Source of the DNA: Citreicoccus inhibens
GTDB taxonomy: Bacteria; Myxococcota; Myxococcia; Myxococcales; Myxococcaceae
DNA length: 64,000 bases
Direction: 5' to 3'
Assembly: GCF_019039035.1 (NCBI RefSeq)
Contig: NZ_JAHNZT010000005.1
Coordinates: 186,001-250,000, forward strand
Shown here: in pieces, positions 9,299 to 39,792 of the stretch
Position numbering within the stretch: position 1 is the stretch's first letter
How the letters are laid out: every line of letters begins with the position of its first letter
Position numbers and translations under genes: made by a program
The notes under the pieces: generated by a model
Told to the model about the DNA's origin: nothing
The model's input: only the letters and a program-made list of their open reading frames with translations
Databases searched by the model: none

Positions 9299-10600
9299 TC
9301 ACCGGCGCGGATCCGCTCGCGGTGTCTCCACGTAGCGCGCCCGAGGGCGCAGCAGGTGCCCCTGCTCGCGCTGCTCCAGCACGTGCGCCACCCAGCCCGC
9401 CGCGCGCCCCACGGCGAACAGCGTGGCCGCGGCGCCAGCGGGCAGTCCCAGCGCCAGGGACAGCGTCACCAACCCGAAGTCCAGGGAGGGCGCGGGGTGG
9501 CCCGCATCGCGCACCACTTCCAGCACGGCCTTCGCCACGCGCACCCCCGGGGCCTCGGGCCGCAGGGCCAGCGCCGCGTCGAGCAGCGGCGGGGTGCGTG
9601 GGTCGCCGTCCGGGTACAGCAGGTGGCCGAAGCCGGTGAGGGCCTCGCCGCGCCGGAGCCGCTCGCGCACCACCGAGGCCGCGCGCTCGGGGCGGCCCAC
9701 CTCGGTGAGCAGGGCCTCCACCCGGTCGCACGCGCCGCCGTGCTTGGGCCCGGAGAGCGCCGCCAGCGCCGCGCCCAGACACGCGTAGAGGTCCGCCCCC
9801 GATGAGGCCGTCACCCGCGCGGCGAAGGTGGACACGTTGAGTTCGTGATCCGCGCACAGCACCAGCGCCCGGTTGAGCAGCCCCGGTGCGTGTTTGCCTT
9901 TCGCGCCCCACGCGTGACCGAGCGACGCGGCCACGGTCGGTTCCTCCAGCGCGCGCGCCACCCGGCCCGGTGCTCGCGCCACGCAGCCCCAGGCGCCCAG
10001 GTGGCGCAGCAGGCGTCTCGCACGGGCCTTCTCTTGCTCGGGCGGTGCGGCGAAGCGCGCCGCGTCCTGTGCGCCCAGCAGGGCCACCAGCGCGGACAGG
10101 GACGCGATGGGAGGCGTGTCGCGTGGCAGCAGCGCCGCCAGCGTGGCGGTGGGCCATGGCGGTGGCTCTGGAGGTTCCCAGCGCGCGGGCGCGGTCGGGA
10201 GCGTGCCCGTCCACAGCAGCTCCGCGACGTCCTCGAAGGCGCGCCCCTCCAGCGCGAGCGACACGGCCGCGTGGCCTCGGTACGCGAGCCCCGCCGCGCC
10301 CACGCGAGACACAGACGAGTCGATGACGGGCTCACCCCAGCGCAGCGCGCCCGAGGCCACCGCGGCGTGCCCCGCGCGCGCGTCGTGTCGTGCCTTCATG
10401 CGCTCCAAGTCCGCGCGCACGTAGCGGTTCTCCTTGGTGCCCGGCTCGGGGACGCACCGCACGAGCCCTCGGCTGACGTACGTGTACAGCGTGGCCCGCT
10501 TCACGCCGAGCAGGGTGGCGGCCTCCGCCGCGGACATCAGCGCCTCCTCATGTCGAAGGTCGAATCGAGATTGAGAGCGACCGCCTTTGCGACCCACCAT
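9299..10600 (-). CDS. citrate synthase-family protein with N-terminal HTH
   Basis: A 433-residue protein. Residues about 20-65 form a MerR/excisionase-like DNA-binding motif (SAAEAATLLGVKRATLYTYV, then a RYVRADLER segment). The rest is a citrate synthase fold with the catalytic triad apparently intact: H287 in SGPKHGGA (His274 of pig enzyme), H326 in GFGHLLYPDGDPR (His320) and D374 in SLDFG (Asp375). H252 in the DHELNVSTF segment matches the conserved substrate histidine. The ATG at 10600 was chosen; one at 10537 would begin right at the HTH. HTH-fused citrate synthases are known in several bacteria but their roles are not settled. It is divergent from a methyltransferase gene 88 bases away. 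Confidence 0.9.
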   Translation of the reverse strand: MVGRKGGRSQSRFDLRHEEALMSAAEAATLLGVKRATLYTYVSRGLVRCVPEPGTKENRYVRADLERMKARHDARAGHAAVASGALRWGEPVIDSSVSRVGAAGLAYRGHAAVSLALEGRAFEDVAELLWTGTLPTAPARWEPPEPPPWPTATLAALLPRDTPPIASLSALVALLGAQDAARFAAPPEQEKARARRLLRHLGAWGCVARAPGRVARALEEPTVAASLGHAWGAKGKHAPGLLNRALVLCADHELNVSTFAARVTASSGADLYACLGAALAALSGPKHGGACDRVEALLTEVGRPERAASVVRERLRRGEALTGFGHLLYPDGDPRTPPLLDAALALRPEAPGVRVAKAVLEVVRDAGHPAPSLDFGLVTLSLALGLPAGAAATLFAVGRAAGWVAHVLEQREQGHLLRPRARYVETPRADPRR

Positions 10601-10688
10601 GCTGCACGCGCCTCCTGGCGCGCCATTGTCGACTCGACTCGACATCCCGTCGAGCCGAAGTCTCCAGCAGGCCCAGAGGAGCACCGCC

Positions 10689-11468
10689 ATGAACGTGGAC
10701 TTCGGACGCACGTCGTCGGACTACTTGAAGCACCGGGCCGGTTTCCCGGACGCCTTCTTCGCGCGGCTGGAGCGGGAGGGCGTGCTGCGCTCGGGCCTGC
10801 GCGCGTTGGACGTGGGCACGGGCACCGGCACCGTGGCGCGGGGGCTGGCCGCGCGGGGGTGCGCTGTCATCGCGCTGGACCCCGCCGCGCCTCAGCTCGC
10901 CGCCGCGCGCGAGGCCGCGGTGCAGGCGGGGCTCTCCATCGACTTCCGGCTGGGCCGCGCCGAGGAGGCGGGCCTGCCCACGGGCTCGGTGGACCTGTAC
11001 GTGGCGGGGCAGTGCTGGCACTGGTTCGAGCGCGACGCCGCCGCGCGCGAGGCGTTCCGGTTGGTGGCTCCAGGAGGGCGGCTGGTCATCGCCCACTTCG
11101 ACTGGCTGCCCACGCCCGGCAGCGTCGCCGAGGCCACCGAGGACCTCATCAATGCGTTCAACCCGGGCCCGCTGCCGCTGTACGTCCAACTGGGCCACGG
11201 CGCGGGCATCTATCCGCAGTGGTTCCATGACGTCACCGCGGCGGGCTTCCAGCGATTGGAGTCCTTCTCCTTCGACGCGCCCACGCTCTACGCGCGCTCG
11301 GCGTGGTTGGGGCGCGTCCGCGCGAGCGCACGGGTGGGGGCGTCGCTGCCGCCCGAGCAGGTGGCCCGCTTCGACGCGGAGCTGGCGCGCCGGCTCGCGG
11401 AGCGCTTCCCCGGAGAGACGTTGTCCATCCCGCATCGCGTGTTCGCGCTCATCGCCACGCGGCCCTGA
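10689..11468 (+). CDS. class I SAM-dependent methyltransferase
   Basis: A 259-residue methyltransferase: motif I ALDVGTGTGTVARGLAARG near residues 40-58, acidic ALDPA, then SVDLYVAGQCWHWFERDAA and the post-motif LVAPGGRLVIAHFDWLP. The CWHWFE segment is typical of the group annotated as yeast Crg1/trans-aconitate methyltransferase-like. Start ATG at 10689 is preceded by a GA-rich stretch. Substrate unknown; next to an HTH-citrate synthase, a tricarboxylate such as aconitate is an attractive guess but unproven. Confidence 0.85.
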   Translation: MNVDFGRTSSDYLKHRAGFPDAFFARLEREGVLRSGLRALDVGTGTGTVARGLAARGCAVIALDPAAPQLAAAREAAVQAGLSIDFRLGRAEEAGLPTGSVDLYVAGQCWHWFERDAAAREAFRLVAPGGRLVIAHFDWLPTPGSVAEATEDLINAFNPGPLPLYVQLGHGAGIYPQWFHDVTAAGFQRLESFSFDAPTLYARSAWLGRVRASARVGASLPPEQVARFDAELARRLAERFPGETLSIPHRVFALIATRP

Positions 11469-11559
11469 GGCGGGAGGGCGTCTCCACCTGAACCCCGTGG
11501 ACGGCGGGGCGTGGACTCCAAGGCGGGCGAGGCATCGCATCAGGTAGGGTGCGCCGGCC

Positions 11560-12060
11560 ATGGCTTCCCTCCTCGATGCGCTCGACCGCGAGCACCTTCT
11601 CAAGAACCGCGCCGCCGCCGCGGAGCATGTGCGGGCCGGGGAGCCGCCCCATGTGTCGCTCTTGCGGCTGTGCGACGCGGGCGCGCTGAGCGGAGGCCTG
11701 TCCGTGGCGTATGGCGTGCGGCCCGATGAGCTGGTGGGCCCGCTCACGGCCGCCATGGGAGGTGCGGCGCGGCGGCTGAAAATCACCGACGTGCGCGAGC
11801 GGCCCGTGCTCACGCTGCACGTGGAGGCCGAGGGCGCGGAGGAGCGCTGGGAGGTGGAGGACGCGGCCGCGCTCGCGCACAACCTGAATGACCTCTACCG
11901 CGCGGCCCCGGACGTGAGAGTGATTGTATTGCTGGGGGAGTGGGAGGACGCGTATCAGCTCGTGTGTGTGGAAAAACGGGCCGTGTCGCGACTGCTAAGG
12001 CAGACATTTTTCGCGCCGTTCAACCTCGAACAGCTCCGAGGGCTTGTCTCAGCGCGTTGA
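11560..12060 (+). CDS. conserved hypothetical protein
   Basis: A 166-residue soluble protein of mixed alpha/beta character with no signal peptide or membrane segment. No catalytic or binding motif was recognised. Features visible are a charged N-terminal helix (SLLDALDREHLLKNRAAAAEH), a central region alternating Arg and hydrophobic residues and an aromatic-rich stretch VLLGEWEDAYQLV. It lies between a methyltransferase and the H-NOX gene on the same strand, 92 bases ahead of the latter. Composition matches its neighbours, so it looks like a resident gene. Confidence 0.7.
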   Translation: MASLLDALDREHLLKNRAAAAEHVRAGEPPHVSLLRLCDAGALSGGLSVAYGVRPDELVGPLTAAMGGAARRLKITDVRERPVLTLHVEAEGAEERWEVEDAAALAHNLNDLYRAAPDVRVIVLLGEWEDAYQLVCVEKRAVSRLLRQTFFAPFNLEQLRGLVSAR

Positions 12061-18031: not shown

Positions 18032-18553
18032 GTGTCCACTGTTCCCCTCCCGTATGTGACCGCCCCCTCCCCGCTGACCCTCCCGCTGATGGGGGGGATG
18101 CTGCCTGGAGGATGGGAGCGGCCTGGGGTGGGGGTCCGGAACCGGGCTGGGTCAGGCGCGCCTCGGGTGATGGTGGTGTCCGAGCTGCCATTGATTCGAC
18201 TGGCGGTGGGGCGGGAGCTGGTCTCTCAGTGTGAGATGTTGCACGCGCTGGGGACGGCGTCCGCGGAGCGGCGGTTGGACGCGGGGGCCACGCCGGAGCT
18301 GCTGGTGCTGGACATGGATTGTACGGCGCGTCCCATCCTGGAAGGGTTCCTGGCCCGGCTGGTGGAGCGGGGCTTTGAGGGACCCCGCATCCTGTTGTCC
18401 GCTGGCTTCCGTACAGAGGCCGCCGCCCGGGTCCGGGCGTCATGCGTCACCCACTTCGCACTCGGTCGGCCCTGGCGCCCGGGCGAGCTGCGCCTGCTCG
18501 TGGAGTCGGTGCTTGGGATCTCCCGCTTTCCTGCCGCCGCACGCAGCCCATGA
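18032..18553 (+). CDS. degenerate response-regulator receiver protein
   Basis: The frame runs from a GTG at 18032 (173 residues). Only the part from about residue 45 looks like a protein domain: RVMVVSELPLIRLAVGREL, then LLVLDMDC with the phospho-acceptor aspartate, then ILLSAG and RPWRPGELRLL. This is a receiver fold in which the usual conserved lysine (K-P-F) has become G-R-P-W and the first acidic pair is missing, so normal phosphorylation is doubtful. The true start may be further in (ATG 18089, or ATG 18170 at MVVSELP); GTG 18032 would make a leaderless message from the promoter just upstream. The stop at 18553 overlaps an ATG (ATGA), see next entry. Confidence 0.5.
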   Translation: MSTVPLPYVTAPSPLTLPLMGGMLPGGWERPGVGVRNRAGSGAPRVMVVSELPLIRLAVGRELVSQCEMLHALGTASAERRLDAGATPELLVLDMDCTARPILEGFLARLVERGFEGPRILLSAGFRTEAAARVRASCVTHFALGRPWRPGELRLLVESVLGISRFPAAARSP

Positions 18554-18578
18554 AGGCCGGTCCGCGTCCCCGGTCTCG

Positions 18579-19334
18579 CTGACTGACCGGTGCCTGGACG
18601 CTGGGCATGGACTCGTCACGGGACTCATCAGCGCCTCGGCGGGCGCGGCGCGCAGCGCCATCTTCGCCCTGGCCTCGCTGGCGGGGGGCGTGGCCCGCTG
18701 CGCCTCGGGGCGCTCGCGCGAGGGGTTGCCCCAGCTGAAGCAGGGGCTGTGGCGGATGGCGCAGCTCCCCGTGGACGTGGTGTTGATGGTGAGCGTGCGG
18801 GTGCTGAGCGCCGCGCAGGTCCTCGCCGGCCTGGAGACCCTGGGCCGCCGCCTCACCGACGCCGAGGTGGCGCGGCTGCGTCCCATCTTCGGGGGCAGCC
18901 TGGACTACGGCGCCGTGCGCGTGAAGGAAGGTCCGCTGGGGCTCTTGGGCGTGACGGGCCGGGCCTTCGCGCACGGCGACACCGTCTTCCTGCCGCCGGG
19001 GGACTCGGCCGCGGACTTCGGGCTGCTCGTGCATGAGCTGACGCACGTGTGGCAGCACCAGCACGGGGGCACGGCCTACTTGAGCGCCGCGCTGCTCGCG
19101 CAATGCCTGGGGGATGGCTACGACTGGCGCAAGGCCGTCTCGCAGCGGCGGCGCTGGGCCGAGCTGAACCCCGAGCAGCAGGCGCAGCTCATCCAGGACG
19201 CGGTGGAGGCCCACCTGGTGCCGCCCGTCTCCGCGCCCACCGCGCAGGTGCGCCTGCGGGGCTGGTCCGACAGCGCGCTGTCCCTGCTGGACGAGGCCAT
19301 GGACTGCCTCTACGCCGGCCGCGGCGCGCCCTGA
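18579..19334 (+). CDS. DUF4157-like HExxH protein, start uncertain
   Basis: The frame ends at 19334 and holds an HExxH metallopeptidase-type motif in VHELTHVWQHQHGG, with the flanking YGAVRVKEG and VFLPPGD segments usual for DUF4157-like (eCIS-core) proteins. Similarity appears to begin near DAGHGLVTGLISASAG, but no ATG or GTG lies there in frame. The ATG at 18550, overlapping the previous stop, is in another frame and stops after ten codons. Possible starts are CTG 18579 (used here), TTG 18513 or the internal ATG 18756. A one-base frameshift between 18550 and 18580 would restore a normal coupled start. Function unknown; related domains occur in secreted toxin and contractile-injection-system proteins. 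Confidence 0.65.
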   Translation: MTDRCLDAGHGLVTGLISASAGAARSAIFALASLAGGVARCASGRSREGLPQLKQGLWRMAQLPVDVVLMVSVRVLSAAQVLAGLETLGRRLTDAEVARLRPIFGGSLDYGAVRVKEGPLGLLGVTGRAFAHGDTVFLPPGDSAADFGLLVHELTHVWQHQHGGTAYLSAALLAQCLGDGYDWRKAVSQRRRWAELNPEQQAQLIQDAVEAHLVPPVSAPTAQVRLRGWSDSALSLLDEAMDCLYAGRGAP

Positions 19335-20261: not shown

Positions 20262-20816
20262 ATGAGCCCGTCGCGTTGGAAGCTGAACCTCGATTGGGTG
20301 ACGCCTTCGCTCGCGGTGGGGGGCCGCTTCCCCATCGAGGCGGCGGACCACCTGGCCCGGAACCTCGGCATCTCCGCCATCGTGGACGTGCGCGGCGAGG
20401 CCCGTGACGACGAGCGCGCCCTGCGCGAGCACGGCATCGCGTTCCTGCACCTGCCCGCCCAGGACCTCGGAGCGCTCCGCCTGGAACGCCTGGACGACGG
20501 CGTGGCCTGGGTGGCCGAGCGACTGGCGCGCGGAGAGAAGGTGCTCATCCACTGCGAGCACGGCGTGGGCCGCAGCGCGCTGCTGGCGCTGTGCGTCATG
20601 GTGGCGCGAGGCGAGGCGCCGCTGGAGGCCCTGGCGAACGCGAAGGCGCGGCGGTGGCAGGTGTCGCCCAGTGAGACGCAGCTGAGGGCCTTCCGCGCGT
20701 GGACGGCGCGGTGGCGCGAGGGGCACGCGGTGTCCTGGGCGGTGCCGTCGGTGGAGGCCCTGGCGGAGCGGGCCTACAGTCACCTGCGCCACCCACCCCC
20801 GGCCGAAGAGTCCTGA
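20262..20816 (+). CDS. dual-specificity protein phosphatase family protein
   Basis: A 184-residue cysteine phosphatase. The signature HCEHGVGRS places the nucleophile at C98, the phosphate-binding R104 and S105. A candidate general acid is D42 in IVDVRGEARDD or the aspartate in PAQDLG. It is clearly a paralogue of the phosphatase at 34745-35329: both share HCEHGVGR, the AVIDLR/AIVDVR block and a common ending (SETQLRAF / NDRQLRGL). Substrate may be protein, nucleotide or lipid phosphate. Same strand as the TIGR00300 gene 80 bases downstream. Confidence 0.85.
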   Translation: MSPSRWKLNLDWVTPSLAVGGRFPIEAADHLARNLGISAIVDVRGEARDDERALREHGIAFLHLPAQDLGALRLERLDDGVAWVAERLARGEKVLIHCEHGVGRSALLALCVMVARGEAPLEALANAKARRWQVSPSETQLRAFRAWTARWREGHAVSWAVPSVEALAERAYSHLRHPPPAEES

Positions 20817-28231: not shown

Positions 28232-30748
28232 TCAGTTCACGGGCGTGGTCCGCTGACCGCCGGCGCCCGCCTCCGGCGCCCGAGTCCGGGGCCGGTGGCG
28301 GCGGTGCTCGGACACCACCAGCAGCAGCGCGGGGAACGACACCAACATGACGACGAGGTTGGTGCCGAAGCCCAGGTTGGCCAGCACGCCAATCGACTTG
28401 AGCCCTGGATGGTTCGCCATGAGCAGCGCGCCAAAGCCCACCGCGCTCGTCAGCAGCCCTCCGGCGATGGCCTTGCCCGTCTCCGAGTACACCTGCTCGA
28501 AGTCGCTGCCCGGTGAAGCGAGCCGCGTCAGCAGGTGCACGCCCGCGTCCACCGTCGTCCCGATGAGCACGGGGATGACCAGGATGTTCAGGTAATTGAA
28601 TGGCAGGTGCAACAGCGGCATCACCCCGAGCAACGCGAACAGCGACACCACGGTAGGCAGCAGGCACAACAGCGCCATGCGCAGCCCGCCCAGCGTCAGC
28701 CACATGGCCCCGAGCACGGCCAGCGTGGTGCCGCCCAGGATGAGCGGCGACTCGTGCGTCACCAGGTTGATGATGTCCGCCAGCACCATGGGCTCGCCCG
28801 CGGCGGACACGCGGCGCCCGTCCGGGAGCTGCACGCCGCGCACCTCGCGGGCCAGGGCGCGCATGGCCTGTCCGTCTGACTGGCTCACGCTCGGGTACAC
28901 CAGCACGAAGCCGCTCTGGTTGCCGCGCCGGTCCAGGAACTGCTGGCGCACGCTGGGGGGCAGGTCCTCTTCGGTATAGGGCCGGGCCTTCACCTGCTCA
29001 CGGAGGCTCGTGAGCTGCTCGCGCTGCTTGGGGTCGAGGGAGTCCTCGGGCACGTCCTCCAGCACCTTCGCGATGTCTCTCAGCAGCACCTGTTTTCGCT
29101 GCTGCTCGGCGGGCACGAGGCTGGAGAGCGAGATGACGAAGTCGACGGTGGAGTCCTTGCCGAGCCGCCGCTTGCGCTCGTTGAGCTCGCGCACCACGGC
29201 CTGTTCCTCTTCGGCCGAGTTGGTCAGCACCACCACGGGAGACTGCGAGTATCCGATGATCTGGTTGACGGCGCGGTCCAGCACGAACGAGGGCAGGTCC
29301 TCGTCCCACAGCGAGCTGAAGTCATAGTCGAAGCTCAGCCGCGGAAGCTGGGTCAGCAGCGCGAGCAGCACCACGCCGGACACGCCGGTGATGAGGCCGC
29401 GGCGGCGCAGGATGAGGCGCCCCATGGAGAAGCGCGAGGACCGGGACGACTCGCGGCGTGGACGCGCGCGCCAGCCCCAGCGGGCCGCCAGCCCGAGCAC
29501 CGCCGGGAGCACCAGGACATAGGCGGCGATGAGCACCACCATGCCCGTGCCCGCGATGACGCCGAACTCGCGGAACGCGCGCAGGCGCGACGTGCCGAGC
29601 ACGAAGAAGGTGAGCGCCGCCACCAGCGCGGAGATGAGCGCCGCGCCGCCGGTGTGCGTGAAGGCCTCTCGCGTGGCCTCCTCGGAGGACTCGCCCTCGG
29701 CGCGCAGGTTCATGTAGCGCCCCAAGAGGTGGATGCCGTGCTCCACGCCCAGGCCGCCGAGGATGGCGCCCAGGAACGCGGTCAGCAGGTTCACCTGCCC
29801 GTAGGCCAGGCCCACCAGCCCGTAGGTCCACGCGAGCCCCGCGCCCACGGGCGCCAGCACCAGCCCCACGGCCAGCGCGCTGCGGAAGTGGAACCACAGG
29901 TAGAGCAGCACCAGCACCGTGGCCACCGTCGAGGACACCGCCACGTCGCGGGTGATTTGCGCCTGTTGATCGATCTTCTTCTGGAACGTGCCGGTGATGG
30001 CCACATGGAAGCGCGGGCCGAAGCGGGACAGGTTCTCTTGCGCGAGCAGCCCGCGCACCTCTCCCACGATGCGCTCCGAGTAGGTGAGGTCCGCCGAGGA
30101 CTGCTCGGGCTTGGCCAGCAGCACCACGCGGCGCGCTTGGGGATCCACGTACGCGTCGCTCGTTCCGCGTGACAGGCGCCGCGCGCCGCTGCCGCCGTAC
30201 TTCGACTCCAGGTCGGAGAAGTCCAGCGAGGGCGCGTCCTCGTCGGTGAGGTTCACGTAGAGCGGGTTGGCCTGCTGCTTCTCCCACGTGATGCGCGCGT
30301 CGAGGCGCCGATGCACCTCCTGAAGGTCCTCGGGGGACAGGAAGTAGAGCGCGTGGTCGCGGAAGAACGTTCCCGGCCGCCGCGCCTCCACGTAGCGGAT
30401 GCCCGGCAGGGCCTCCAGCTTCGGCGCCAGCTCATCGGAGAAGCGCTGGAGCGCCTCGGGCTCCGCGTCCTCGCCCACCACCACCACCCAACCCAACGCG
30501 CCGAAGCGCTGCTCCAGGGTGTGCAGGTCCTGCACGCTCTCGAAGGACTCGGGCAGCAGGTCCGCGAGGTTGGCGTTGAGCGTCAACGTGCGCGCCAGGT
30601 CCAACCCCACCGCGCTGAGCACCAGCGTCGCCAGCAGCGCCAGCCACGGGCGCCGGTGGTTGTGCACGGCCAGGCTGCCCACGGCGAGCTCCACGCGATG
30701 CATCCACGGTCGCTCCCCGGGTGAAGACTCCGACGGGTCCGAGGCCAT
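28232..30748 (-). CDS. RND/MMPL-family membrane transporter
   Basis: An 838-residue RND-superfamily protein from ATG 30748. It shows the expected two-fold pattern. A first membrane helix (WLALLATLVLSAVGLDL) is followed by a periplasmic domain of about 200 residues. A five-helix block around 265-430 contains GGLGVEHGIHLLGRYMNL. A second loop leads to a repeated five-helix block with IGTTVDAGVHLLTRLA near the end. The EHGIH and DAGVH motifs are the charged transmembrane residues of the MMPL/HpnN-like branch, which move lipids or hydrophobic compounds rather than classical drugs. The paralogue at 31097-33574 is divergently transcribed. Substrate unknown. Confidence 0.88.
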   Translation of the reverse strand: MASDPSESSPGERPWMHRVELAVGSLAVHNHRRPWLALLATLVLSAVGLDLARTLTLNANLADLLPESFESVQDLHTLEQRFGALGWVVVVGEDAEPEALQRFSDELAPKLEALPGIRYVEARRPGTFFRDHALYFLSPEDLQEVHRRLDARITWEKQQANPLYVNLTDEDAPSLDFSDLESKYGGSGARRLSRGTSDAYVDPQARRVVLLAKPEQSSADLTYSERIVGEVRGLLAQENLSRFGPRFHVAITGTFQKKIDQQAQITRDVAVSSTVATVLVLLYLWFHFRSALAVGLVLAPVGAGLAWTYGLVGLAYGQVNLLTAFLGAILGGLGVEHGIHLLGRYMNLRAEGESSEEATREAFTHTGGAALISALVAALTFFVLGTSRLRAFREFGVIAGTGMVVLIAAYVLVLPAVLGLAARWGWRARPRRESSRSSRFSMGRLILRRRGLITGVSGVVLLALLTQLPRLSFDYDFSSLWDEDLPSFVLDRAVNQIIGYSQSPVVVLTNSAEEEQAVVRELNERKRRLGKDSTVDFVISLSSLVPAEQQRKQVLLRDIAKVLEDVPEDSLDPKQREQLTSLREQVKARPYTEEDLPPSVRQQFLDRRGNQSGFVLVYPSVSQSDGQAMRALAREVRGVQLPDGRRVSAAGEPMVLADIINLVTHESPLILGGTTLAVLGAMWLTLGGLRMALLCLLPTVVSLFALLGVMPLLHLPFNYLNILVIPVLIGTTVDAGVHLLTRLASPGSDFEQVYSETGKAIAGGLLTSAVGFGALLMANHPGLKSIGVLANLGFGTNLVVMLVSFPALLLVVSEHRRHRPRTRAPEAGAGGQRTTPVN

Positions 30749-31096
30749 GTCGTCCTGACCGCCCGAGGCGGTCACCCCTTCCCTGGGCGCCCGCTGTGCG
30801 AGCCGCCTGTCCTGTGGGGGAACGTGGCCACGGCGCACGGCGTCTGCACGGGGCCCGGGTCCGCTGTCCGGTGTCAGGAAATGCGGAGGGACGCCCCCAC
30901 TCCCCGCGTGCGCCAGTGAATGCTCGCTCGCCCGAAATGCATCCCGTGCAACGAAATGCGCGGGTCGTTAGATGGTGCGGTCATTCGGGGCCTTACCTTC
31001 CGGGATGCGGCATAAACGCGTTGACTCCCTGGTTTGGCCGTGCCCAAGGTGGGCCGCCTTTTTTCGGTCGGAAGTCAACACAGCGGGTGTCGCAAC
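30749..31096. promoter_or_regulatory. shared control region of two RND transporters
   Basis: 348 bases between two divergently transcribed paralogues, no supported gene. An exact inverted repeat, GTTGACT at 31020-31026 and AGTCAAC at 31073-31079, flanks 46 bases just ahead of the right-hand gene. It could be an operator or could pair in the leader RNA. A short T-run (31059-31064) lies between the arms. Confidence 0.4.
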
Positions 31097-33574
31097 ATGG
31101 CTGAGATGCGTTGGTCCGAGCGGTTCCAGGCGGCGATGGGCAAGACAGCTGCCCGGAGCCACCAGAGGCCCTGGCGGGCCTTGCTCGTGGCGCTGGTCCT
31201 GACGGCGATTGGTGGGTACTTCGCCCAATCCCTGTCACTCAACGCGGACCTGGTGGGACTGCTCCCCAAGTCGTTCCAGAGCGTTCAGGACATCGAGAAG
31301 CTGCGCAAGCGCTTCGGTGGGCAGGGCAACGTGGTGGTGGTGGGCATGGGCGCGGACGCGGATGCGCTCAAGCGCTTCGTGGACGACATGTCCCCGCAGC
31401 TCGCGAAGCTGCCGGAGATCCGCTACGTCAACGCGCAGCGCCCGCGCGCCTTCTTCGAAGAGCACGCGCTCTACTACCTGGACGTGGACGACCTGAAGGC
31501 GGTGCAGGAGCGCATCGACTCGCGCATCGCGTGGGAGAAGGAGCAGGCCAACCCGCTCTTCGTCCGGCTGGATGACTCCCCGGCGCCGTCGCTGGACTTC
31601 TCCGACATCGAGCACAAGTACGCGGGCCGCGCCAACACGCGCCTGTCCGGGGGCGGAGACCTCTACTACCTGGACGCCAAGTCGCGCATGGTGGTGATGA
31701 TGCTCAAGCCCAAGGGCAGCTCCGCGGACCTGAGCTACTCCAAGCGCGTCATCGCGCAGGTGGAGGACTTCCTCGGCAAGCAGGACCTGTCCAAGTACGG
31801 GCCCGGCTTCAAGACGGCCATCACCGGCACGTTCAAGAAGAAGATTGATCAACAGGGCGTCATCTCCAACGACCTGGCGACCACGGGCACGGTGGCCATG
31901 GTGCTGCTGGTCCTCTACCTCATCTTCCACTTCCGCAGCGGCGTGTCCGTGGGCCTCTCCATGGCCCCGGTGATGGCGGGCCTGGCGTGGACCTACGGCT
32001 TCGTGGGCCTGATGTACGGCCAGGTCAACCTGCTGACCGCGTTCCTCGCGGCGGTGCTGGGGGGCTTGGGCGTGGAGCACGGCATCCACTTGTTGGGGCG
32101 CTATGGCGCGCTGCGCGCCGAGGGGGCGACCTCCGAGGACGCGGTGGAGGAGACCTTCCGGCACACCGGCTACTCGGCGCTCATCTCCGCGCTGGTGGCG
32201 GCGCTGACATTCCTCAGCCTCTCGCTGTCCGAGTTCCGAGCGTTCCGTGAGTTCGGCGTCATCGCGGCGGTGGGCATGGTGGTGAGCGTGCTGACGTACG
32301 TGCTCATCCTCCCGGCGCTGCTCGGGCTGGCGGCGCGCTTCAACTGGATGCCGAAGGTGCATCACGCGTCCGGTGGCCCCATGGCGATGCTGGCGCGCTG
32401 GCTGCCGCGCAGCTACCGGGGCGTGGCCATCGTGGTGGGCGTGGGCTCGCTGGCGCTCATCAGCCAGGCGTGGCGCGTGTCGTTCAACTACGACATGTCC
32501 AAGCTGGATGACGTGAGCCTGCCCTCCGTGCAGTTGGACCAGAAGGTGAACCACATCCTCGGCTACTCGCAGACGCCGGTGGTGGTGCTGACCGACTCGC
32601 AGAACATGGAGCGCGAGGTCGTGCGCCAGTTGGAGGCGCGCAAGCAGTCGCGCGGCAAGGACTCCACCATCGACTTCGTGGGCGCGCTGGAGGACCTGGT
32701 CCCCACGCGGCAGGCGGAGAAGCAGGTCATCCTGGACGCCATCGCGTCCAAGCTGGGGAAGATTGACGCGGCCCACCTGAAGGGCCAGACGCGCACGGAC
32801 CTGGAGCGCGCGCAGCGCATGTCGCTGGCCAGGCCCTTCACCCAGGCGGACATGCCCGAGGGCGTGCGCCACCAGTTCGAGAGCCTGGATGGCAGCACCG
32901 GCGGCGTGGTGCTGGTGTACGCGGGCATCAGCCTGTCGGACGGCGCGGGCACGCGGAAGTTCGCCAAGGAAGTGCGCGACATGTCGCTGCCGGACGGCAC
33001 GCGCGTGTCGGCGGCCGGCGAGGCGCTCATCCTCGCGGACATCCTGGACATGGTCGCGCGCGAGGGTCCCCGCATCCTGGCCGCCGCGGTGCTCAGCGTG
33101 ATGGCCGCCATGTGGGTCACCATGGGCCGGCTGCGCACGGCGCTCATCTGCATGCTGCCCACGCTGCTGTCCATCGCGGCGCTGGTGGGCCTGATGTCGC
33201 TGCTGGGTCTGGAGTTCAACTACCTGAACATCGTGGTGCTGCCGGTGCTGGTGGGCACCACGGTGGACGCGGGCGTGCACCTGGTGGAGCGCTTGGGAGA
33301 ACCGGGCGCGGACTTCGTCTCGGTCTACGCCGAGACGGGGCGCGCCATCACCGGCGGTCTGCTGACGAGCGCCATCGGCTTCCTCGCCCTCATCATGGCC
33401 AAGCACCCGGGCCTCAACTCGATTGGTGACCTGGCCAACCTGGGCTTCGGCGTGAATATGCTCATCGTGCTCCTGGGCTTCCCGTCGCTGCTGCTCATCG
33501 TCGAGCGCTGGCGCCGCAAGCACGGGGGCGTGCCGGAGCACCCCGAGCAGCCCGCCACCACACCGGAGGCTTGA
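31097..33574 (+). CDS. RND/MMPL-family membrane transporter (paralogue)
   Basis: An 825-residue close relative of the transporter at 28232-30748, read along the whole length. Shared blocks include WxALLxxLVLxAxG at the first helix, NADLVGLLPKSFQSVQDIEKL, GLGVEHGIHLLGRY and GTTVDAGVHLVERLGEPG. The ATG at 31097 begins MAEMRWSERFQ; a TTG 63 bases upstream would add 21 residues that the paralogue lacks. The pair may form a two-pump lipid export unit or heteromer. A small lipoprotein gene starts four bases after the stop. Confidence 0.88.
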   Translation: MAEMRWSERFQAAMGKTAARSHQRPWRALLVALVLTAIGGYFAQSLSLNADLVGLLPKSFQSVQDIEKLRKRFGGQGNVVVVGMGADADALKRFVDDMSPQLAKLPEIRYVNAQRPRAFFEEHALYYLDVDDLKAVQERIDSRIAWEKEQANPLFVRLDDSPAPSLDFSDIEHKYAGRANTRLSGGGDLYYLDAKSRMVVMMLKPKGSSADLSYSKRVIAQVEDFLGKQDLSKYGPGFKTAITGTFKKKIDQQGVISNDLATTGTVAMVLLVLYLIFHFRSGVSVGLSMAPVMAGLAWTYGFVGLMYGQVNLLTAFLAAVLGGLGVEHGIHLLGRYGALRAEGATSEDAVEETFRHTGYSALISALVAALTFLSLSLSEFRAFREFGVIAAVGMVVSVLTYVLILPALLGLAARFNWMPKVHHASGGPMAMLARWLPRSYRGVAIVVGVGSLALISQAWRVSFNYDMSKLDDVSLPSVQLDQKVNHILGYSQTPVVVLTDSQNMEREVVRQLEARKQSRGKDSTIDFVGALEDLVPTRQAEKQVILDAIASKLGKIDAAHLKGQTRTDLERAQRMSLARPFTQADMPEGVRHQFESLDGSTGGVVLVYAGISLSDGAGTRKFAKEVRDMSLPDGTRVSAAGEALILADILDMVAREGPRILAAAVLSVMAAMWVTMGRLRTALICMLPTLLSIAALVGLMSLLGLEFNYLNIVVLPVLVGTTVDAGVHLVERLGEPGADFVSVYAETGRAITGGLLTSAIGFLALIMAKHPGLNSIGDLANLGFGVNMLIVLLGFPSLLLIVERWRRKHGGVPEHPEQPATTPEA

Positions 33575-34744: not shown

Positions 34745-35329
34745 CTACGCGGCCCGGCCCGCCTCGCGCGCCGTCCAGCCGGCCACGAAGTCCGCCAGCC
34801 CGCGCAGCTGCCGGTCGTTCAGCGTCGCCTGCCAGCGCGCCTCGCGCAGCGCCCGGTACGCGTCTGGCGCGTCCCAGCCTCGGGCCACCATGACGGCCAG
34901 CCCCATCAGCGGCCCGCGCCCCACGCCGTGCTCGCAGTGGGTGTACAGCACCCCCCCCGCGTCCAGCCGGGGCAGGGCCCACTCCACGCCGCGCGACAGC
35001 TGCTCCACCGAGGGGGGGTAGCGGTCCGTCACGGGCAGGTGCAGCAAATCGATGCCCAGGGCCGCGAGCGCCTCGGCGTCATCCTGGCGCTCGGCGCGCA
35101 GGTCAATCACCGCGGTGATTCCCTGGGCCTTCAGCTCCGCGTACCGCGAGCGCGGCACCGAGCCGCCCACGTGCAGCCACGCATTCACCCGCGACACGTT
35201 CAACGCGCGCCGCCCGGGGAGCTTGGTGGTCCACTCCACGCCGCGCGCCACCACGCGCAGCACCTGCTTGCGCACCCAGCCTCGCACTCCCGGCACATGG
35301 TGCACCGACCGCAGCAGCGACTCGCTCAC
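34745..35329 (-). CDS. dual-specificity phosphatase, last gene of the inositol-lipid cluster
   Basis: A 194-residue phosphatase from GTG 35329, 11 bases after the preceding stop. The signature HCEHGVGRG gives nucleophile C132 and R138; the residue after the arginine is Gly139 where most relatives have Ser/Thr. A candidate acid is D76 in AVIDLRAERQDD. It is a paralogue of 20262-20816. Phosphatases of this fold dephosphorylate lipid headgroups as well as proteins (mitochondrial PTPMT1 acts on phosphatidylglycerol phosphate). Given the upstream inositol genes, removal of phosphate from phosphatidylinositol phosphate is the best guess. Confidence 0.8.
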   Translation of the reverse strand: MSESLLRSVHHVPGVRGWVRKQVLRVVARGVEWTTKLPGRRALNVSRVNAWLHVGGSVPRSRYAELKAQGITAVIDLRAERQDDAEALAALGIDLLHLPVTDRYPPSVEQLSRGVEWALPRLDAGGVLYTHCEHGVGRGPLMGLAVMVARGWDAPDAYRALREARWQATLNDRQLRGLADFVAGWTAREAGRAA

Positions 35330-35340
35330 GCCCCGCGCTC

Positions 35341-36327
35341 CTACTCGCCTTCCAGCGTCACTTCCAACAAGCCCTGCACCGGCGTCTTGCCCGCCTGCTC
35401 CAGCACGCCGCGGTGCAGATACGTCACGGGTGAGCCCACCACCGGCCGCACCAGCCCGGCCAGCATTCCCAGCTGCTCCACCGGCGCGTTGCGCTGGAGG
35501 ATGGAGGTGGAGCGCAGCGCCATGGCCATGTGCCCGTCGTCTCCGGTGAACTCCGCGCGCCACACGCTGCGCTCCTTGGTGCCCTCGCGGTTGAGCGTGA
35601 AGGACTCCAGCCGGCGCGGCGCCTGGCCCTCTTCCCAGAAGTACACGGGGCCGAACTCGCCGTCCTGGCCCTCGCGCGCCAGCAGCACCAGGTGCTGGCC
35701 GCCCCGCAGCGCGCGGAAGCGCACCCAGCGGCGCGCCAGCTTCGCGGGCGGAATCGTCGAGCGGGTGTGGTCCGCGTAGCCGCCGCCCGTCAGCGTCTCC
35801 TCGGCGGACTTGGGTGGCTGGAGGGTGACCTTCACGGGGCTGGTGGCCACCAGCACCTCGTGGCGGTAGCGCTCGTTGCCCACCTCCACCACGGAGCCGT
35901 CCGGCGAACGGGGCGACAGCGGCGCGTCATACGTCAGCGTCACGCGGCCGCCGTCCAGGGGCGCCTCCACCTGCGTCCCGGTGGCGCTCGAGCGCGCCCA
36001 GCAATCACCGACCTGGAGCGTGGACGTGGCGGCGTCATAGCGCCACTGCTTGCCGCCCACGCGATTCTGCGGCGTCCAGGCCCGCTGACCGGGCCGCAGC
36101 ACCGTCGCCCGGCAGATGCCGGTGCGCGAGCCGGGCCCGATGTTCGTCATGGACAGCTGCACGAGGACGAAGCCGCCGTCGTCCAGGTCGCCAATGAACG
36201 TGAAGCTCTCGCCGTAGTTGTCGTTCGTGGAGAACGTGGGCTCCAGCGCCGCGCCGCGAGCCGCCGTGCCCGCGAGCGCGAGCAGGGCGGCCAGCAGCAG
36301 CGACGACAGCCGCGTCTCACGCCGCAT
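35341..36327 (-). CDS. exported lipocalin-like protein of the inositol cluster
   Basis: A 328-residue protein from ATG 36327 with a signal peptide (LSSLLLAALLALAGTAARG). Its start overlaps the end of the phosphotransferase gene by 11 bases, so it is translationally coupled. The mature part has segments alternating short strands with aromatics (NYGESFTFIGDLDDGGFVLV, then LRGGQHLVLLAREG), reminiscent of the double-lipocalin proteins related to CrtC/Svf1/tocopherol cyclase; this is a weak resemblance. Such proteins bind or modify lipids, which would fit the cluster. No catalytic residues were recognised. Confidence 0.65.
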   Translation of the reverse strand: MRRETRLSSLLLAALLALAGTAARGAALEPTFSTNDNYGESFTFIGDLDDGGFVLVQLSMTNIGPGSRTGICRATVLRPGQRAWTPQNRVGGKQWRYDAATSTLQVGDCWARSSATGTQVEAPLDGGRVTLTYDAPLSPRSPDGSVVEVGNERYRHEVLVATSPVKVTLQPPKSAEETLTGGGYADHTRSTIPPAKLARRWVRFRALRGGQHLVLLAREGQDGEFGPVYFWEEGQAPRRLESFTLNREGTKERSVWRAEFTGDDGHMAMALRSTSILQRNAPVEQLGMLAGLVRPVVGSPVTYLHRGVLEQAGKTPVQGLLEVTLEGE

Positions 36328-37558
36328 GGGGGCGCTGCTCCAGCAGCGCGTCCGGAGCGTCGTTGAACACGTAGTCGCGCTGCAGGGGCAGGTTCCACGC
36401 GAAGAACACCACCCCGCGCACCACCCACCAGCCAAGCGTGTAGGCCAGCTGCGGGTGCAGCGTCATCAGCGCCACGCCGCCCGCGTTGAGCAGCGCGCTC
36501 GTCGCGCTCACCACCGTGTAGCGCGCCAGCTGCGGCGCCACCGCTCCACTGCTGCGGAAGGTCAGCACGCGGTTGAGCGAGTAGTTCACCACGCCCCCGA
36601 GCACACAGCCGGCCACCGTGGCCCACGCGGGGGACATCGCGCCCCACTCGACCATGGCGAGCACCGCGGCGAAGTCCACCGCCGTGGCCACCGCGCCCGA
36701 CGCCGCGTTGAGCCCCACCAGCGCCACGCCCGAGCGCGCCGCCTGCGGCTTCTTGGGCGCCAGTGCCTCCACCAGCTTGCGGAAGCGCGAGAGCGCCGTG
36801 ACGTTGCTCATCACCGCCACGAAGACGAGCCCCGCCACCGCCAGCCAGTGCATGGGGTGCTTGTGCTCGGGCCAGAAGATGGCCTCCAGGATGGGGGACA
36901 GCGCCGTGCCCACGCCGAGGAAGAGCACGCGCTCCAGCCGCTGCATGGCGCCGTCGCGCACGCTCACGCCCAGGCCCTCGCCGCGCGCCCGGACATAGGG
37001 CACCAGCGACGAGCCGAGGAAGGCCACCAGCGCGGGCAGGAGCACCCAGGTGTCCCGGTAGTACCAGGCCAAGCCCATCAGCATCGCCGAGTCGACATAC
37101 CGGTCCAGCACCGAGTCCAGCGCGGCGCCGGCCGGGTTGGCCTCCTTGCGCGTCCGGGCGATGCGGCCGTCCATCACGTCCAGGATGCCGGCCATGAGGA
37201 ACAGCCAGCCGCCGAGCGCGAAGCGCCCCGCCGCCACGGCCACGCCGGAGGACACCCCCAGCAGGCCGGACAGCATGGACAGCGCGTTGGCCGGCAACCC
37301 CGAGCGCAGGAGCAGCTGCCACAGGGGCTGGATGACCCAGAAGAAGTAGTGCCGCAGGAAGAAGCCCACCAGCACGGTCTTGCCGCGGGTGAGCGTCTCC
37401 GCGTCGCGGGGGATGCCCTTGAAGGCGCACCGCACGCAGAACAACAGGAGACCGCCCAGGAAGTAACAACAGGCCAGCAGCGCCGGCGCGAGCGCCGACC
37501 AGATGCGGGCGGACGGGGACAGGTCGCCCGTCAGCCACGCCAGGAGGTTGTCATGCAC
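36317..37558 (-). CDS. CDP-alcohol phosphotransferase fused to GtrA-like domain
   Basis: A 413-residue integral membrane protein. Residues about 65-240 are a CDP-alcohol phosphatidyltransferase with a complete catalytic motif: D127-x2-D130-G131-x2-A134-R135-x8-G144-x3-D148-x3-D152 (DVMDGRIAR then GAALDSVLD). Residues about 285-400 are a GtrA domain of four helices (VNYSLNRVLTFRSSG), a family that moves lipid-linked sugars across membranes. Phosphotransferases of this class join a CDP-lipid to an alcohol such as inositol 3-phosphate, glycerol phosphate or serine. With inositol-3-phosphate synthase in the same operon, phosphatidylinositol phosphate is the likeliest product; fusion to a flippase-type domain is unusual. 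Overlaps both neighbours. Confidence 0.85.
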   Translation of the reverse strand: MHDNLLAWLTGDLSPSARIWSALAPALLACCYFLGGLLLFCVRCAFKGIPRDAETLTRGKTVLVGFFLRHYFFWVIQPLWQLLLRSGLPANALSMLSGLLGVSSGVAVAAGRFALGGWLFLMAGILDVMDGRIARTRKEANPAGAALDSVLDRYVDSAMLMGLAWYYRDTWVLLPALVAFLGSSLVPYVRARGEGLGVSVRDGAMQRLERVLFLGVGTALSPILEAIFWPEHKHPMHWLAVAGLVFVAVMSNVTALSRFRKLVEALAPKKPQAARSGVALVGLNAASGAVATAVDFAAVLAMVEWGAMSPAWATVAGCVLGGVVNYSLNRVLTFRSSGAVAPQLARYTVVSATSALLNAGGVALMTLHPQLAYTLGWWVVRGVVFFAWNLPLQRDYVFNDAPDALLEQRPHAA

Positions 37559-38480
37559 GGGTGTCTCCTCCAGGAGTCAGGGGCACCGGTACAGGCACCG
37601 GCGCCAGCTGGCGGGCGAACGCGAGCTCCACCGCCATGCAGGCGAGGAGCGCGGCGGTCATGCCAGCGGTCACGTCCAGGACGTAATGGTGCGACAGATA
37701 GACTGCGGAGAACGCGATGAGGGCGGAGAACAGCCCCGCGCCCACGCGCCACAACGGCCCGCGGTGCCACGTGTGCCACAACACCAACACCGGATAGGCC
37801 GAGTGCAGGGAGGGCATGGCGCCGAAGACGTTCTGGTTGCGTGAGTAGAAGTTGTGGAAGTACTGGATGCCGAAGAACGCGTCGAAGCGGGCCGCGCCCG
37901 CCGCGCTCGGGGCCACCGCGAGGTCCGCCGGGCCCAGGCCGTGCGTGAGCACATACCAGGGTGGCGCCGCCGGATAGAGCATGTACGTGGCCACGCCCAC
38001 GACGTTGACCACGAGGAAGCTCCAGCACAACTGCTCGAAGCGCGGATGCTTCGCCACGAAGAAGAAGATGACGACCGCGAAGACCTCGAAGAGGTACGTC
38101 GCGTAGCCAAATCCACACAACAGGTCGAGCACGACATGGCTGCGCTCGGCCAGGTACGCGGGCCAGTTGGCGGCGCCCGCGGGCGCGGGGAACACCCGAC
38201 CATCCAGGGTGAACAAGTCCCCGGTGTGGATGTCTCCACGCCAACCCAACCACAGGCCCTGGCTGTCCATCAGCATGCCGGACAGCCACAGCGGGAACCC
38301 GCCGCGGAGGAACCGCCGCGTCCGGGGGCCAATCCAGGCCAGCCCCACGACGAGCAGATCCACCACGGCGTGCTCCCACCGGAGCCGCCCGGCGGCGGTC
38401 ACGAACGCCAGGTGGCCCACCGCCATGACGGTGGTGAGCCACATGAACGCGCTCGGTCTAGCGGGCGATTGGGAGGTCAT
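37551..38480 (-). CDS. PAP2/inositol-phosphorylceramide synthase-like enzyme
   Basis: A 309-residue membrane protein with about six helices. The PAP2/Aur1 active-site blocks are present: YPAAPPWY (about 169-176), MPSLHSAYP with catalytic H226, and SHHYVLDV with H264/H265 and D269. This spacing matches inositol phosphorylceramide synthases and inositol transferases that swap lipid headgroups, more than the broad-range lipid phosphatases. Start overlaps the preceding ino1 stop by 23 bases, and its end overlaps the phosphotransferase gene. In the pathway proposed here it would transfer phosphoinositol from phosphatidylinositol to ceramide or another alcohol. Confidence 0.8.
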   Translation of the reverse strand: MTSQSPARPSAFMWLTTVMAVGHLAFVTAAGRLRWEHAVVDLLVVGLAWIGPRTRRFLRGGFPLWLSGMLMDSQGLWLGWRGDIHTGDLFTLDGRVFPAPAGAANWPAYLAERSHVVLDLLCGFGYATYLFEVFAVVIFFFVAKHPRFEQLCWSFLVVNVVGVATYMLYPAAPPWYVLTHGLGPADLAVAPSAAGAARFDAFFGIQYFHNFYSRNQNVFGAMPSLHSAYPVLVLWHTWHRGPLWRVGAGLFSALIAFSAVYLSHHYVLDVTAGMTAALLACMAVELAFARQLAPVPVPVPLTPGGDTRA

Positions 38481-39792
38481 CCCCGTAGTAGTCGAGGCCG
38501 AGGTGGGTGATGGGCTCTTCGCCCGCGACGACGCGCAACGTGTTCTTCAGCTTCGTCAGCTGGATGAACAGGTCGTGCTCCACGGGCAGACCCGGGTGGG
38601 CCATGGGGCTCTTGAAGTAGAACGACATCCACTCCTGGATGCCGCGCCACTCCATCCGCTTGGCCAGGTCCAGGAACAGCGCGATGTCCAGGACGAGCGG
38701 CGCCGCCAGGATGGAGTCGCGGCAGAGGAAGTTGATCTTGATCTGCATCGGGTAGCCGAGCCACCCGAAGATGTCGATGTTGTCCCACCCCTCCTTCGCG
38801 TCGCCGCGGGGCGGGTAGTAGTGGATGGACACCTTGTGGGAGTACTTGTTGTACAGCTCCGGGTAGAGCTCCGGCTGGAGGATGGTGTCCAGCACGCTGG
38901 ACTTGGTGACCTCCTTGGCCTTGAAGGCGGCGGGATCGTCCAGCACCTCACCATCGCGGTTGCCCAGGATGTTGGTGGAGAACCAGCCCTCCAGGCCCAG
39001 CATGCGCGCCTTGAGCGCGGGGGCGATGACCGTCTTCATCATCGTCTGGCCGCTCTTCAGGTCACGGCCCGCGACGGGGACGTTCTCCTGCTTGGCCAGC
39101 TCCTGGAGCGCCGGGGTATCCACGCTGGCGTTCGGGGTGGCGTTCGCGAAGGGCACGCCCTCCTTGATGGCCGCGTAGGCGTAGAGCGCCGTCGGGTTGA
39201 TGTCCGGGCTGTTCGCGTCCAGCGCCTTCTCGAAGTTCGCCAGCGACTGGAAGGCCGCGGGCATCGGGCGGAACGTCTCCACGCTGCTGCACACCACCAT
39301 CACCGCGCGCTTCGCGTTCAGCTCCTTCTTGAAGTCGCGGATGTCCTGGCGCAGCGCCTCGATGCTCTCGCGGTGCGTCTTGGTGGCCTTGACGTGGTTC
39401 GCCTCGATGCGGCGGACGAACTCGGCGTCATGCACGCCCTTCTTGGGCTTGATGCTCTGCAGGAAGGGCTTCACCTGCTCCAGGTGCTTGTCGTTCAGCA
39501 CGCCGGAGCGCACCGCCACCTGGTACGCGTCCTCGCTGATGATGTCCCAGGCCCCGAAGGCCACGTCGCCCAGCTCCGTCAGCGGAACCAGCTCGTTGAG
39601 CTTCACGGTCCGGCCGTCGGTGCGCTTGCCCAGGCGCGCCGTGCCCATCTGCGTCAGGGACCCGATGGGGGCGCCCTTGCCCTGCCGCGTCAATTCCACG
39701 CCCGCCATGAGCGTCGTGGACACCGCGCCCAGCCCCGGGATGAGCACTGCCAGCTTGCCCTCGGGCTTCGACACCGACTTCTTGGTCTCCAT
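38458..39792 (-). CDS. ino1: myo-inositol-3-phosphate synthase
   Basis: A 444-residue NAD-dependent enzyme that turns glucose 6-phosphate into inositol 3-phosphate, the first step of inositol synthesis. The NAD-binding LIPGLGAVSTTLMAG is at residues about 17-31, and conserved blocks include NPTALYAYAAIKEGVPFANATPN, GRDLKSGQTMMKT and the catalytic-lysine region KINFLCRDSILAAPLVLDI. The ATG at 39792 has AAGGAA about nine bases upstream. First gene of the five-gene minus-strand cluster; a candidate promoter lies about 110 bases upstream. Confidence 0.95.
   Translation of the reverse strand: METKKSVSKPEGKLAVLIPGLGAVSTTLMAGVELTRQGKGAPIGSLTQMGTARLGKRTDGRTVKLNELVPLTELGDVAFGAWDIISEDAYQVAVRSGVLNDKHLEQVKPFLQSIKPKKGVHDAEFVRRIEANHVKATKTHRESIEALRQDIRDFKKELNAKRAVMVVCSSVETFRPMPAAFQSLANFEKALDANSPDINPTALYAYAAIKEGVPFANATPNASVDTPALQELAKQENVPVAGRDLKSGQTMMKTVIAPALKARMLGLEGWFSTNILGNRDGEVLDDPAAFKAKEVTKSSVLDTILQPELYPELYNKYSHKVSIHYYPPRGDAKEGWDNIDIFGWLGYPMQIKINFLCRDSILAAPLVLDIALFLDLAKRMEWRGIQEWMSFYFKSPMAHPGLPVEHDLFIQLTKLKNTLRVVAGEEPITHLGLDYYGDDLPIAR

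Follow-up and report, generated by a model that had tools for sequence, protein, structure and literature searches.

Here, we describe a cluster of five genes on the minus strand of a 64,000-nucleotide stretch of the Citreicoccus inhibens genome (contig NZ_JAHNZT010000005.1, positions 186,001 to 250,000; hereafter the window), which, judged from sequence, is very probably a conserved myxobacterial cluster for making inositol phospholipids and inositol sphingolipids. The pathway and its lipids are already known; the arrangement of the genes is new. The cluster (34745-39792) encodes, in order, inositol-3-phosphate synthase (MIPS; gene 1, 444 aa, 38458-39792), a PAP2-fold enzyme resembling phosphoinositol (dihydro)ceramide synthase (gene 2, 309 aa, 37551-38480), a CDP-alcohol phosphotransferase (CDP-AP) of the phosphatidylinositol phosphate (PIP) synthase type fused to GtrA (gene 3, 413 aa, 36317-37558), a putatively exported double-lipocalin protein of the AttH/CrtC/Svf1 superfamily (gene 4, 328 aa, 35341-36327) and a dual-specificity phosphatase (DSP) with a GTG start, the candidate PIP phosphatase (gene 5, 194 aa, 34745-35329). 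The MIPS and PAP2 genes overlap by 23 bases, the PAP2 gene and gene 3 by 8, and genes 3 and 4 by 11, while a gap of 11 bases separates genes 4 and 5. These positions and junctions, re-derived from the sequence, are exactly those given in an earlier note on this DNA, and the families it named for genes 1, 2, 3 and 5 were found by Pfam and NCBIfam searches. The inositol-lipid pathway proposed there is in turn supported by family placement, catalytic motifs, conserved gene order, a serine palmitoyltransferase in the genome and lipids reported in Myxococcus xanthus (PMC9246714).

First, we focus on the enzymes that would build the lipids. Gene 1 carries the Pfam families Inos-1-P_synth/NAD_binding_5 (PF01658, PF07994) and is the only PF01658 match in the genome (9.05 Mb). 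Its best match in the PDB is 7nwr with 483 bits, against 200 bits for the next. According to the data statement of PMC9246714, 7NWR is BT_1526 of Bacteroides thetaiotaomicron, and by this comparison gene 1 is related to the MIPS of that organism, its closest solved relative. In gene 3, residues 90-232 (36863-37291) match the CDP-AP family PF01066 with 52.4 bits and residues 286-398 (36365-36703) match the GtrA/DPMS transmembrane domain PF04138 with 56.2 bits. The first half scores 119 bits with the NCBIfam model archin_ph_syn, 117 with PIPSynBT1523 (NF052561) and 97 with PIPSynth. Scores with pgsA- and pssA-type models are 20-27 bits, and a phosphatidylglycerophosphate or phosphatidylserine synthase was rejected on this difference. 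The best solved matches by alignment are PIP synthase structures, and the CDP-AP motif DX2DGX2AR...GX3DX3D is present in gene 3 and in 77/79 homologues. Lys135 and Arg155 of 6h53, which we take to be contacts of the inositol phosphate, align to Arg190 and Arg210 of gene 3, two positions that, by our mapping, do not vary across the family alignment. Placement of the CDP-AP half with the PIP synthases is thus supported. Gene 2 matches PF14378 (PAP2_3) with 83.6 bits and NF052609 (PhinosDhcerSyn) with 136 bits, the next NCBIfam model reaching 19 bits; an undecaprenyl-diphosphatase, with 19 bits only, was rejected. A motif of the PSLH...HHYxxD type is found in 43 of 44 PAP2 homologues, and the PAP2 enzyme of Polyangium reaches 180 bits with PhinosDhcerSyn. 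These similarities support grouping gene 2 with the phosphoinositol-ceramide synthases (PAP2/AUR1-like inositol phosphoceramide synthases). Several points speak against the assignments: gene 2 lies below the curated NF052609 cut-off (136 vs. 480 bits) and gene 3 below both of its own (117 vs. 350 and 97 vs. 170 bits), one PAP2 homologue (L108) lacks the exact PAP2 motif, and two PIP synthase homologues lack the exact CDP-AP motif. Even so, we consider it highly likely that genes 1, 3 and 2 perform the MIPS step, PIP synthesis and inositol phosphoceramide synthesis, respectively.

The same five-gene order was searched for across the myxobacteria, and the genes are kept together. In a sample of 146 Myxococcota genomes, in which each of the five genes was searched (counts are among the matches listed), all five lie on one contig in the same strand and order in 45 genomes. 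All 45 belong to the window's own family, which contributes 65 members to the sample. A script run on the match coordinates found the order intact in 45/45, with junctions of -20 to 112 bases between matched ends. These 45 genomes and no others have matches to gene 4 above 300 bits and to gene 5 above 285 bits (next best 96); weaker gene 4 homologues (up to 267 bits) add 22 genomes, giving 67/146. We further surveyed 79 named loci, keeping the best 80 of 304 matches to a fusion alignment. Here, the order is intact in 21 of the 22 loci of the five-gene type, and the 22nd (L101) ends with its contig after gene 3. Most of these loci come from Myxococcus, Corallococcus, Pyxidicoccus and Hyalangium, and a Myxococcus xanthus record (L068) carries the whole cluster. 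Because strand and order are shared in 45/146 genomes and 21/22 named loci, the five genes are not together by chance; their order in 45 genomes and the gene fusions described below rule out chance neighbours as an explanation of the cluster. Outside the family, Polyangium (L113, L115, L117) shares the order MIPS-PAP2-PIP synthase/GtrA, as does one contig assigned by its label to Candidatus Dadabacteria (L066). Counting against the proposed unit, no DSP or gene 4 match was found near the Polyangium clusters. Several loci are contig fragments (including L055, L058, L101, L105, L112, L118 and L126). A typical Myxococcus-type cluster is also borne by a contig labelled Comamonas sp. KCTC 72670 (L065), a record name that is probably wrong.

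Based on families, motifs, the predicted gene 4 fold, gene order and fusions, the cluster can be read as an assembly line. The PIP-synthase half of gene 3 would couple inositol phosphate to CDP-diacylglycerol at the cytosolic face, yielding PIP, from which the DSP encoded by gene 5 would strip the phosphate to leave phosphatidylinositol (PI). The GtrA half of gene 3 might then move PI, or aid its movement, to the periplasmic leaflet. In the periplasm, the PAP2 enzyme would use PI as the donor of phosphoinositol for ceramide, so that inositol phosphoceramide is formed and diacylglycerol released. Gene 4, the exported Svf1-like double lipocalin, might carry or present ceramide, diacylglycerol or the product to the PAP2 enzyme. 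Finally, an HpnN-like RND pump, joined in some relatives by MlaC-like and TolC-like partners, might send the product towards the outer membrane. We regard this explanation as a whole as likely. Synthesis is well supported, whereas flipping, carrying and export are steps that we infer. For the B. thetaiotaomicron counterparts of genes 1, 2 and 3, and for a different phosphatase, the roles have been shown by others (PMC9246714, PMC8791184), as has the presence of the lipids in B. thetaiotaomicron and M. xanthus.

The lipocalin-like nature that the earlier note ascribed to gene 4 was not visible by family search and was confirmed by structure prediction. The AlphaFold2 model, built from 33 sequences, has a pLDDT of 90.1 and a pTM of 0.90. 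Its full-length structural matches are AttH/CrtC-type double lipocalins only (VIA Z 18.6-22.8 over 262-287 residues; the next Z is 8.2), and the superfamily fills Foldseek ranks 1-27, at sequence identities of 8-14% to its solved members. The predicted structure thus confirms two lipocalin domains in one chain. Residues 10-28 form a hydrophobic, signal-like segment by hydropathy. Some of its relatives resemble the Svf1 family in sequence. Eight of the 33 gene 4 homologues match Svf1_C at E values up to 1 (best 8.2e-6), and a fusion homologue (L036) passes the curated Svf1_C cut-off (26.2 vs. 25). When the 33 homologues were scanned against Pfam, nothing but Svf1_C fell below E 0.005, and the enzyme families of this fold were absent from the matches listed. 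With an E limit of 0.1, Svf1_C is found 14 times across the 146 genomes, in 11 of them. Every one of these matches falls in an open frame that gene 4 or its profile recognises as well, and ten have a CDP-AP or MIPS match in the same stretch (G050, G003, G013, G020, G027, G031, G042, one of two in G038 and two of three in G035). An HHpred analysis in the AttH structure paper tied the fold to PF07143 (CrtC) and PF08622 (PMC2954199), the latter being named Svf1 in Pfam. A search of the window's genome with PF08622 returned nothing, as did its control, hence this result is not proof of absence. Yeast Svf1 is described as a potential ceramide transfer protein, the deletion of which leads to more ceramide and fewer complex sphingolipids (PMC10583516).

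Alternatively, the lipids may be made as proposed with gene 4 serving as a lipid-modifying enzyme (hydratase, lyase or similar) in place of a carrier, which we consider unlikely. The full-length structural matches with tested function are enzymes (the pericyclases Fsa2, CghA and Phm7, kievitone hydratase and 25-phosphosteroid lyase), and no solved Svf1 structure is among the matches. Further evidence counting against a carrier is that the window's gene 4 has no Pfam match even at E 10 and no NCBIfam match, and that no other cluster gene was found in the stretches with the two strongest Svf1_C matches of the phylum (G030, G011). A phmmer search of gene 4 against the PDB also gave no match. Tyr158 and Asp160 (model numbering) are invariant in 33/33 homologues, and a Tyr-x-Asp pair is, besides His and Trp, among the residues essential in CrtC (PMC4717167); one distant gene-4-like protein (L141) shows a weak CrtC match (E 7e-4). 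However, the His-x-Trp of CrtC, which precedes its Tyr by 25-27 residues, lacks a conserved equivalent. In a comparison that relies on spacing and does not superpose these residues, only 22/33 homologues have His at position 130, and a conserved Trp is absent from positions 131-134. Moreover, the His after the Asp is replaced by Thr in the eight fusion sequences of the first form described below. This residue comparison makes a CrtC-type hydratase less likely. Because of the Svf1_C matches and the unconserved CrtC His and Trp, a carrier is favoured over an enzyme, without certainty, and we rate lipid carriage by gene 4 as nearly an even call.

How gene 4 might be placed relative to the synthase is suggested by natural fusions. 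PIP synthase and GtrA form one protein in 63/79 loci, are adjacent but separate in 7/79, and the PIP synthase stands alone in 9/79. In eight of the 79 loci (within the 63), PIP synthase, GtrA and gene 4 are joined in one polypeptide, which occurs in two forms. The first form, of 757-804 aa, is found in seven loci (L052, L053, L054, L056, L057, L059, L060). The second (L062, 736 aa) comes after a distant MIPS homologue (22 bits) and a PAP2 gene, with a same-strand RND gene next in line. A further fusion of the first form (L033) lies outside the 79 loci; triple-fusion loci on the same contigs (L032=L062, L034=L060, L035=L056, L036=L057) were counted once. A hydrophobic 19-mer precedes the beta domain in the first form (mean hydropathy 1.67-2.43) and is weaker in L062 (1.33), and the structure model of a triple fusion has a helix at 387-409. 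If the PIP synthase has six membrane helices and a cytosolic C-terminus, as is usual in this family, and GtrA contributes four more, the extra helix would put the gene-4 part in the periplasm, which matches the signal-like segment of the separate protein; we infer this placement. Some reservations apply to these fusions. The frequencies are biased upwards by the fusion-alignment query, some loci with PIP synthase alone are fragments, L061 is absent from the eight since phmmer did not pick up its gene-4 part, and the triple-fusion model is weak (pTM 0.43), too weak for domain packing. Searches of open-licence papers for earlier reports of a PIP synthase-GtrA fusion, and of HpnN-class pumps with sphingolipids, gave none that describes this cluster in its title or the opening of its abstract.

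For the GtrA half, the counterpart in B. thetaiotaomicron is the GtrA protein BT_1524. Its deletion led to less inositol phosphoceramide and more PI in total membranes, and it is described as acting on inositol phosphoceramide synthesis 'through an unknown mechanism' (PMC8791184). Weighing the other way, Heaver et al. report no change by thin-layer chromatography upon BT_1524 deletion (PMC9246714). Flipping of PI by the GtrA half is in our view evenly balanced. If true, GtrA would in this setting be a PI flippase, explaining the BT_1524 phenotype.

Gene 5 is a DSP/PTPase with the active-site loop HCEHGVGR, and the [HY]CX5R loop is present in 23/23 homologues. It might act elsewhere, on a protein or, like PTPMT1, on phosphatidylglycerophosphate, leaving PIP to another enzyme. 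Its PDB matches are unspecific, with similar scores for protein tyrosine phosphatases, PRL-type enzymes and PTPMT1, the Polyangium clusters do without a DSP match, and the window has a second DSP at 20262-20816 (+), 40% identical to gene 5 and ~14 kb from the cluster. Yet, within the 146 genomes, the orthologue of gene 5 (above 285 bits) is confined to the 45 with the five-gene cluster, and a phosphatase of some kind recurs in other loci: in L089 and L095 the gene run passes from the RND gene straight to a more distant DSP, and an HAD phosphatase lies between GtrA and gene 4 in L088. A role elsewhere appears rather improbable, and dephosphorylation of PIP by gene 5 somewhat probable. Various relatives also have a gene 5 paralogue on the same contig, at a distance of ~14 to 66 kb.

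With respect to gene 2, the acceptor could be other than ceramide, or the enzyme might hydrolyse a lipid phosphate, the product then being mainly PI or a PI-based glycan. PAP2 enzymes are diverse, the PhinosDhcerSyn score lies well under the equivalog cut-off, and four loci (L092, L097, L111, L116) have PIP synthase-GtrA and MIPS with no PAP2 match in the fetched stretch. This explanation is nonetheless quite improbable, given that PhinosDhcerSyn is the sole strong NCBIfam match, that the genome has a serine palmitoyltransferase and that ceramide phosphoinositol is reported in M. xanthus. The report of ceramide phosphoryl-myo-inositol in that organism cites Lorenzen 2014 (PMC9246714), and a review lists PI and sphingolipids as present in myxobacteria (PMC9131029). 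The serine palmitoyltransferase (positions 402773-404329 of contig C46) scores 513.8 bits with NF047600 SerpalmtaseCFB (cut-off 640) and 401 bits with PDB 3a2b. Beside it lie GNAT, MlaC-like and TolC-like genes and an HpnN-like RND gene (C46:399941-402304), the third in this genome next to the two described below. The open reading frame of the serine palmitoyltransferase (L139:9774-11330) has 518 aa, of which ~120 C-terminal residues are unexplained, as the matches end by ~residue 394.

The coordinates of the earlier note omit two HpnN-like RND genes just beyond the cluster. The first (31034-33574, +), an MMPL/RND transporter, scores 276 bits against a cut-off of 752 and is a probable functional partner by gene neighbourhood. 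The second (28232-30838, -) is divergent to the first and 56% identical to it. The genome holds ten RND matches, five of them above 230 bits, and of these five, two lie beside the cluster and one beside the serine palmitoyltransferase. Among the 67 loci whose sequence runs on for 3 kb or more past the PIP synthase gene, 46 have an RND gene of at least 100 bits in view, and in 14/67 it is on the same strand and within 300 bp of that gene. One locus (L089) has the gene run MIPS, PAP2, PIP synthase-GtrA, RND, DSP. In 22 gene-called loci, an MlaC-like (MlaC/HpnM-like) family occurs in eight and a TolC-like family in six (Pfam on two members each). Detracting from a link to export, no RND gene is in view in 21/67 loci, and the window's RND genes are outside the operon, one on the opposite strand and with a NicO-like gene between. 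Another MlaC-like gene of the same genome (G000:C68:407852-408259) lies ~2.5 kb from another HpnN-like RND gene (410761-413247).

The cluster might also be regarded as simply the Bacteroidota pathway in another phylum, with the RND pump and gene 4 as accidental neighbours. The core enzymes and GtrA do match BT_1522-1526 (PMC9246714, PMC8791184), and the window's RND genes stand apart from the operon. This appears quite improbable, however: there are two different forms of a translational fusion between PIP synthase-GtrA and gene 4; of the five RND matches above 230 bits in 9.05 Mb, two lie beside the cluster and one beside the serine palmitoyltransferase; and a second type of cluster, which has MIPS and a CDP-inositol-type enzyme, also contains gene-4-like proteins and RND genes. 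For this second type, we examined 13 stretches, 12 of which were picked for holding a gene-4-like or Svf1_C match. In a Myxococcota family other than the window's (f13), gene-4-like proteins have a different CDP-AP close by in L141, L142, L143, L144, L148, L149 and L150, MIPS in L141, L142 and L145, and an RND gene in L141, L142, L143, L149 and L150. The CDP-AP of L141 and L148, the two tested, and that of L151 match the CDP-inositol-type bifunctional family below its cut-off; an NTP transferase is present in L141 and an HAD protein in L142. The link between gene 4, RND and inositol-lipid genes does therefore not depend on one enzyme type. Export of the product by the RND pump is, like carriage by gene 4, a possibility that falls slightly short of even. 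The most integrated version would join a PI synthase, a GtrA flippase and a periplasmic ceramide carrier of the Svf1 kind into one unit, in some lineages a single polypeptide, which hands its product to a dedicated RND-MlaC-TolC exporter; it is a tentative and rather doubtful proposal.

A few further observations concern variants and neighbours. In two loci of the second type, Kelch-repeat proteins separate the gene-4-like and RND genes (L141:12290-13354, L142:5784-6872). Two further families lie near the PIP synthase, GtrA and PAP2 genes in another set of Myxococcota clusters. One is a class-III aminotransferase, present in nine of the 22 gene-called loci (Pfam for L054 and L123), and the other is a GFO/IDH/MocA oxidoreductase that weakly matches inositol dehydrogenases and is present in L096 and L123, both of which have MIPS (aminotransferase and oxidoreductase coordinates: L123:6801-7934, 9289-10689; L096:9179-10522, 10545-11642; L054:10510-11760). 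Together, aminotransferase and oxidoreductase could make an amino-inositol head group. Elsewhere in the window, the protein encoded at 18231-19334 (+) has an eCIS core domain (PF13699, 27 bits against a cut-off of 22), which might connect it to a contractile injection system.

The arrangement bears on how bacterial inositol lipids and sphingolipids travel from the site of synthesis to the outer membrane. The natural fusions of PIP synthase-GtrA and PIP synthase-GtrA-lipocalin give a direct indication of which parts work together and how they sit in the membrane. The RND, MlaC-like and TolC-like genes linked to the cluster are testable export candidates, with the five-gene cluster being present in M. 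xanthus, a tractable laboratory organism. Through the Svf1 link, a bacterial gene would be connected with a ceramide-binding protein of eukaryotes, which also feeds complex sphingolipid synthesis. If true, eukaryotic Svf1 would have a relative in the bacterial envelope that was already at work in inositol phosphoceramide synthesis.

Compared with known systems, gene 4 and yeast Svf1 both have two lipocalin domains, and some gene-4 relatives match Svf1_C. Svf1 acts next to complex sphingolipid synthesis, which resembles the setting of gene 4, but the yeast protein works between the endoplasmic reticulum and the Golgi and has a cytosolic pool (PMC10583516), whereas gene 4 has a putative export signal or a membrane-protein tether, and the window copy is without a Pfam match. 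The double-lipocalin fold is likewise common to gene 4, AttH NE1406 and the lipocalin-like pericyclases; gene 4 differs in its gene context, and the essential His and Trp of CrtC are not conserved in it. The neighbouring RND genes are of the same class as the lipid transporters HpnN and BstA (PMC10942540), with scores far below the equivalog cut-offs, and are linked here to inositol-lipid genes and serine palmitoyltransferase. The CDP-inositol route, with NTP transferase, CDP-AP and HAD protein (alternative cluster in PMC9246714), resembles the second Myxococcota type, while the window cluster uses a PIP synthase.

The operon BT_1522-1526 of B. thetaiotaomicron, characterised by knock-outs, comprises inositol phosphoceramide synthase, PIP synthase, GtrA, a PgpA-like PIP phosphatase and MIPS (PMC9246714, PMC8791184). 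Both systems cluster the same five functions and follow the same chemical logic. In the window, however, GtrA is fused to the PIP synthase, the gene order differs, the phosphatase is of the dual-specificity and not the PgpA-like type, and an exported double-lipocalin gene and nearby RND pump genes are added. The earlier remark that the gene set matches no arrangement familiar to its author is only partly right: GtrA is already part of the B. thetaiotaomicron operon as BT_1524, whereas the fusion, the double lipocalin, the different phosphatase and the linked RND genes are new.

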